From positions 62,001 through 126,000 of the forward strand of contig CAMQZC010000001.1 of the NCBI GenBank assembly GCA_947039485.1: a DNA stretch of 64,000 nt. The letters are read 5' to 3'. The translations under genes were made by a program, and so were the position numbers. Below the pieces are notes generated by a model. That model was given only the letters and a program-made list of their open reading frames with translations, was not told the DNA's origin and did no database searches. The DNA comes from an uncultured Verrucomicrobiales bacterium. GTDB lineage: Bacteria; Verrucomicrobiota; Verrucomicrobiia; Verrucomicrobiales; Akkermansiaceae. This document shows, in pieces, positions 48,379 through 48,580 of this stretch (positions are counted from its first letter, which is position 1; every line of letters begins with the position of its first letter).

Positions 48379-48394
48379 TGCAACTATAGTTGCA
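48379..48394. promoter_or_regulatory. Perfect palindrome over the dnaK start site
   Basis: TGCAACTATAGTTGCA is a 16-bp perfect palindrome that overlaps the -12 element and the predicted start point near 48380. It looks like a repressor operator or a start-site hairpin. Confidence 0.5.
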
Positions 48395-48407
48395 AATATC
48401 GTGCCAA
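48390..48407 (-). promoter_or_regulatory. Sigma-54 (-24/-12) promoter of dnaK
   Basis: The minus strand reads TTGGCACGATATTTGCAA. This matches the sigma-54 consensus TGGCACG-N4-TTGCW at every fixed position, with GG and GC exactly 10 bp apart. Predicted start near 48380 gives an 82-nt leader. No other consensus copy was noticed upstream of genes in the window. Confidence 0.75.
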
Positions 48408-48521
48408 CATATGAAAAATTGATAAAATCGTGAATAAGTTATGTAATACGTTAGTAATCAATATAATAATTAGCGATAGATTTTCAGCGATAATACAAGT
48501 GTGATATTTCACCACGTCCTT

Positions 48522-48580
48522 AGTGACATTTTGCCGCAGTGTAGTGACAAAATGCCGCAGCTATATGAGACATTTTGTCA
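48522..48580. repeat. TGACA-type repeats upstream of dnaK
   Basis: AGTGACATTTTGCCGCAG (48522-48539) is repeated as AGTGACAAAATGCCGCAG (48543-48560). The TGACAAAATG in the second copy forms a perfect 10-bp inverted repeat with CATTTTGTCA at 48571-48580. They lie 140-200 bp upstream of the predicted dnaK start, the usual place for activator sites. They could instead be an old transposon end. Confidence 0.6.

Follow-up and report, generated by a model that had tools for sequence, protein, structure and literature searches.

The dnaK gene of this Verrucomicrobiales genome appears to be transcribed from a sigma-54 promoter with its own cluster of upstream activator sites. Bacterial dnaK genes are usually controlled by sigma-32, HrcA/CIRCE or sigma-70. 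The window analysed, that is the whole stretch of 64,000 nucleotides, contains the dnaK gene, its promoter region and a NifA-like sigma-54 activator. As judged from sequence comparison, it is quite likely that dnaK has a sigma-54 promoter preceded by three dyads, that a response regulator encoded outside the window is its activator, and that the NifA-like protein serves glnN (type III glutamine synthetase).

The sequence TGGCACGATATTTGCA at positions 48391-48406 of the minus strand is the only exact match to TGGCACNNNNNTTGCA in the window. Together with the preceding T it forms TTGGCACGATATTTGCA, a -24/-12 element with the invariant GG-N10-GC spacing, and the original prediction of a full match before dnaK was correct on this point. 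The dnaK start codon that agrees with the relatives is the ATG at 48298, with a 5' UTR of ~80 nt; the longer ORF from 48379 probably does not mark the true start. The features of the window on which the analysis centred were the following:

13665..15245, minus strand: NifA-like GAF-AAA+-Fis activator, probable regulator of glnN and not of dnaK
46345..46377, minus strand: intrinsic terminator with a 14-pair stem, between dnaK and groES (-31.1 kcal/mol for 46300-46384, z -5.9)
46385..48298, minus strand: dnaK (Hsp70), 638 aa (PF00012, E 9e-249), start codon picked from relatives
48378..48382, minus strand: predicted transcription start region (~48380), placed from the position of the -12 GC
48391..48407, minus strand: dnaK sigma-54 -24/-12 promoter element TTGGCACGATATTTGCA, exact consensus, kept across the genus and order
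48522..48538, no strand assigned: predicted activator-binding dyad 1, AGTGACATTTTGCCGCA, closest to the promoter
48543..48559, no strand assigned: predicted activator-binding dyad 2, AGTGACAAAATGCCGCA
48566..48582, no strand assigned: predicted activator-binding dyad 3, TGAGACATTTTGTCATG, the most degenerate copy

A perfect 16-bp palindrome, TGCAACTATAGTTGCA (48379-48394), overlaps the -12 element and the predicted start; it was set aside because it was not seen in relatives.

The comparison of regions upstream of dnaK covered 31 same-genus genomes, 22 genomes of the order and 36 belonging to other orders within the class, with shuffled sequences as controls. The promoter score was at least 14 in all 31 same-genus regions (0.1% of shuffles), and at least 12 in 21 of the 22 regions from the order (95%; shuffles 4.4%). 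A TGGCA-N7-TGC site preceded dnaK in 20/20 genomes that represented the order's other families. In the class-level set of 36, a score of 12 or more was reached by 81% (shuffles 6.2%) and one of 14 or more by 31% (shuffles 0.2%); about one fifth of these regions had no good -24/-12 match. The dyads were conserved as well, with at least two copies upstream of dnaK in 31/31 same-genus genomes (shuffles 0.3%). In the broader sets, one copy or more was found in 95% of the order sample, 91% of the class sample and 9/9 named Verrucomicrobiota genomes, among them Victivallis and further Lentisphaerae (shuffles 7-9%). Both the element and the repeats that the original prediction had proposed to look for in close relatives were thus found there. 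No dnaK dyad was detected among ten Bacteroidota and other genomes looked at; these included one Phycisphaerae and one Gemmataceae genome (Planctomycetota), both with a good -24/-12 element and without the dnaK-type dyad. These comparisons suggest that dnaK apparently lies behind a sigma-54 promoter across the whole Verrucomicrobiota phylum. A chance resemblance might be suspected, given that near-consensus sites are frequent inside the genes of this genome, but the position of the dnaK site and the conservation of promoter and dyads, which in genus, order and class far exceeds the level in shuffled sequence, effectively refute this explanation, which we regard as extremely improbable.

The genome also contains the sigma factor that such a promoter needs. 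The rpoN gene, on whose presence the proposal depended, was located at G000:C12:59272-60528, with a score of 369.8 bits, above the cut-off, and is complete, including the C-terminal RpoN box SRRTIAKYRE. HrcA was detected in 0/59 genomes of the order, and the positive controls gave matches. No CIRCE element was visible upstream of dnaK in the window, as had been noted earlier, or found by a simple pattern in 40 class-level dnaK upstream regions. HrcA/CIRCE and sigma-32 act on the same target gene, dnaK, but here neither the hrcA gene nor, in the upstream regions scanned, CIRCE was found, which does not fit HrcA/CIRCE control. The conservation of the -24/-12 element and dyads, the intact rpoN and the absence of HrcA make sigma-54 control of dnaK well supported.

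A sigma-70-like sequence upstream of dnaK (48487-48460) is a weak match, with 9 of 12 positions. It could belong to a pair of tandem promoters, with sigma-70 providing basal and sigma-54 regulated expression, and such a pair would suit the fact that DnaK is normally required at all times. Tandem promoters of this kind have been described before hrcA-grpE-dnaK of Chlamydia trachomatis (PMC7482065, PMC8762339). However, matches at just 9 of 12 positions are common by chance, and we consider tandem promoters here possible but on the doubtful side; they would be compatible with sigma-54 as the main explanation.

The three dyads of the window lie ~115-175 bp upstream of the -24 element. In 93 copies from the 31 same-genus genomes, the dyad is a 17-bp motif, TGCGRCA-WWW-TGYCGCA; most copies are spaced by 17-27 bp, and the distance from the last dyad to the -24 element has a median of 95 bp. 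The original prediction had described these repeats as TGACA-type sequences with a perfect 10-bp inverted pair; the repeats are real and the pair is present (TGACAAAATG / CATTTTGTCA), but a single palindrome in three copies describes them better. A strict search for tandem dyads in 59 genomes returned five matches, four of them at dnaK, while the single dyads inspected at C3, C12 and C25, among the matches listed, were unconvincing. An IHF-like sequence was enriched upstream of the -24 element (exact in 14-17% vs 0.8-0.9%), a modest signal that suggests a DNA bend before the dnaK promoter.

Two high-scoring sigma-54 activators were found in the genome, the NifA-like protein at 13665-15245 and a response regulator at G000:C2:72186-73592. 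The first of them had been proposed as the protein that binds the upstream repeats and activates dnaK. It does exist, with an intact GAFTGA loop and a Fis-type HTH, it is encoded in the same window, and its presumed glnN dyad has an ACA/TGT core in common with the dnaK dyad. Its score of 454 bits lies below the NifA curated equivalog value of 528.85, which makes it NifA-like only. No match to this protein was found in 11 same-genus genomes that retain the dnaK promoter and dyads, and its occurrence tracks a different promoter: the glnN sigma-54 site was present in 11/11 genomes with a close NifA-like ortholog and in 1/19 without one (Fisher p 2e-7, shared ancestry ignored). Its recognition helix also differs from that of the response regulator. 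The role in dnaK activation is contradicted by these 11 genomes and by the link to glnN, and this protein is very unlikely to be the dnaK activator.

In this genome, the sigma-54 promoter TTGGCACGCTATTTGCA lies upstream of glnN at G000:C9:57935-57951 (L177 ~3936-3952), accompanied by ACA-N4-TGT dyads. The glnN dyad has four bases between its half-sites, as in TTTACAAATTTGTAAA, whereas RCA and TGY of the dnaK dyad are separated by three. A sigma-54 site together with the ACA-N4-TGT dyad occurs at glnN2 and gltB (glutamate synthase) of other genomes, and glnN2 is found near a NifA-like homolog; examples for gltB are L367 ~4413-4430 (G083:C1:1465413), L369 and L377. In some genomes gltB is divergent from the second glnN. 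These promoters make up a nitrogen-assimilation sigma-54 regulon. Two genomes depart from the association, G008 having the glnN site and no NifA-like gene, and G024 having sigma-54 sites at glnN2 and gltB and no second activator found; many of the genomes are drafts, in which a missing activator can be an assembly gap. From this co-occurrence, the NifA-like protein of the window probably regulates glnN.

With the NifA-like protein eliminated, the response regulator at G000:C2:72186-73592 is the probable activator of dnaK. This protein of 468 aa contains a receiver (PF00072), an AAA+ domain (PF00158) with a GAFTGA-type loop and a Fis-type HTH (PF02954), the architecture of NtrC/AtoC-type regulators. 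The loop reads GSFTGA in this genome, and GAFTGA or GSFTGA in nearly all relatives. Almost every genome of the genus and order encodes the protein; across the order the receiver residues DD/D/T/K are kept, and the recognition helix LLGI(S/N)RRTLQRK is near-invariant and distinct from that of the NifA-like group. Its best NCBIfam matches are AtoC and NtrC, but the scores fall below the curated equivalog cut-offs (430 of 714 bits for AtoC, 408 of 558.6 for NtrC) and its predicted target is a chaperone; the protein is of the same kind as AtoC and NtrC, not proven to be either. No kinase was recognised among the neighbouring ORFs that were read.

From these features we infer the following scheme. 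Sigma-54 RNA polymerase would use the -24/-12 element at 48391-48407 to transcribe dnaK. A hexameric AAA+ activator would bind the three 17-bp dyads at 48522-48582, reach the promoter by DNA looping, possibly with an IHF/HU-type bend, and remodel the closed sigma-54 complex, leading to promoter opening. The response regulator would be this activator, with phosphorylation of its receiver by a kinase turning dnaK on, and the NifA-like protein would drive the sigma-54 promoter of glnN instead. Since enhancer-dependent promoters normally stay silent unless their activator is present, Hsp70 synthesis would answer to a phosphorelay.

The signal entering such a phosphorelay could be something other than heat or unfolded protein, for example growth phase, nutrients or the envelope, with the sigma-54 promoter itself being real. 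The receiver of the candidate activator, a response regulator, is intact, which implies kinase input, and the other sigma-54 promoter of the genome is related to nitrogen; in Chlamydia, sigma-54 genes have been linked to late development, and sigma-54 expression dropped with heat. On the other hand, the dyad cluster seems specific to one chaperone gene, which points to protein homeostasis. A signal other than heat or unfolded protein is a realistic possibility, somewhat short of an even chance.

Genome-wide targets were sought by pattern searches limited to near-consensus sites. There are 48 sites in this genome with at most one mismatch to TTGGCAYNNNNTTTGC, and only those of dnaK and glnN were seen to be intergenic and just upstream of a gene start. 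The others that were examined were rejected as targets, as they fall inside ORFs or at contig ends, or have no gene start just downstream. Sigma-54 thus appears, from these searches, to serve two promoters in this genome, with a separate activator for each. G002, G003 and G006 are single-activator genomes, and their exact-consensus sites other than that of dnaK were located in ORFs or did not exist, suggesting that some species may retain sigma-54 largely for dnaK. One further sigma-54 site was found in G001, at G001:C25:74191-74207 (L366 minus strand, ~1192-1208), before a small protein that begins MPNIIEEAYVKCIRG. Dyad-like sequences, CGCGGCATACTGCCGCG, are present upstream of this site, and the dnaK activator of that species may have a second target here.

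A broader reading of these patterns is that the main, ancestral role of sigma-54 in Verrucomicrobiota includes Hsp70, that a response regulator and a dedicated dyad control dnaK almost alone in place of HrcA/sigma-32, and that some Akkermansia-type genomes keep rpoN and a single activator essentially for dnaK. We hold this proposal tentatively, at only a little under an even chance. The pattern is conserved over the phylum, including Akkermansia-type gut bacteria, and no literature linking Akkermansia with sigma-54 and heat shock was found.

Two known systems resemble the one proposed here. In C. trachomatis, hrcA-grpE-dnaK is preceded by tandem promoters, one of the sigma-54 and one of the sigma-66/CIRCE type, and the sigma-54 activator CtcC/AtoC has no DNA-binding domain (PMC7482065, PMC8762339). 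The likeness consists of a sigma-54 promoter before an operon containing dnaK in the PVC group and an AAA+ activator of the response-regulator type. However, the chlamydial sigma-54 promoter overlaps a sigma-66 promoter with CIRCE and HrcA, whereas the present dnaK is a single gene without HrcA or CIRCE, preceded by three conserved dyads, and its candidate activator has the Fis-type HTH (HTH_8) that CtcC lacks; this is not dnaK control of the chlamydial type. A 2025 survey predicts, computationally, a sigma-54 cluster of heat-shock chaperones that includes DnaK (GroEL, GroES, GrpE, DnaJ, DnaK, IbpA) in Planctomycetota and Bacteroidota (PMC12316311). As far as the available text of that survey goes, Verrucomicrobiota are not among the phyla enriched for the chaperone cluster, and the cluster is given no activator or activator site (PMC12316311). 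In the genome studied here, dnaK was the sole chaperone target found. Sigma-54 control of chaperones is already known; what is new is its phylum-wide form in Verrucomicrobiota, which lacks HrcA and has dedicated dyads and a probable activator. The analysis singles out one candidate as the activator, defines the exact DNA site and outlines a sigma-54 network of two promoters, all directly testable.

The predicted sigma-54 transcript probably ends after dnaK, given the 14-pair terminator before groES, and groES-groEL is probably transcribed separately as a consequence. Between this terminator and groES there is a dyad, ATTGAACTGAGTTCAAT (46304-46320), which is possibly a groES operator or a product of chance. 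No such dyad was found within 420 bases after dnaK in same-genus relatives, a weak negative result, as the groES finder missed the window's own copy.

On the other side of the promoter region, a tRNA gene (48720-48809, plus strand) is divergent from dnaK and has a strong sigma-70-like promoter at 48675-48703. Adjoining the dnaK region, at 49383-53036, a gene for a Fic-like protein precedes type I restriction-modification M and S-like genes.
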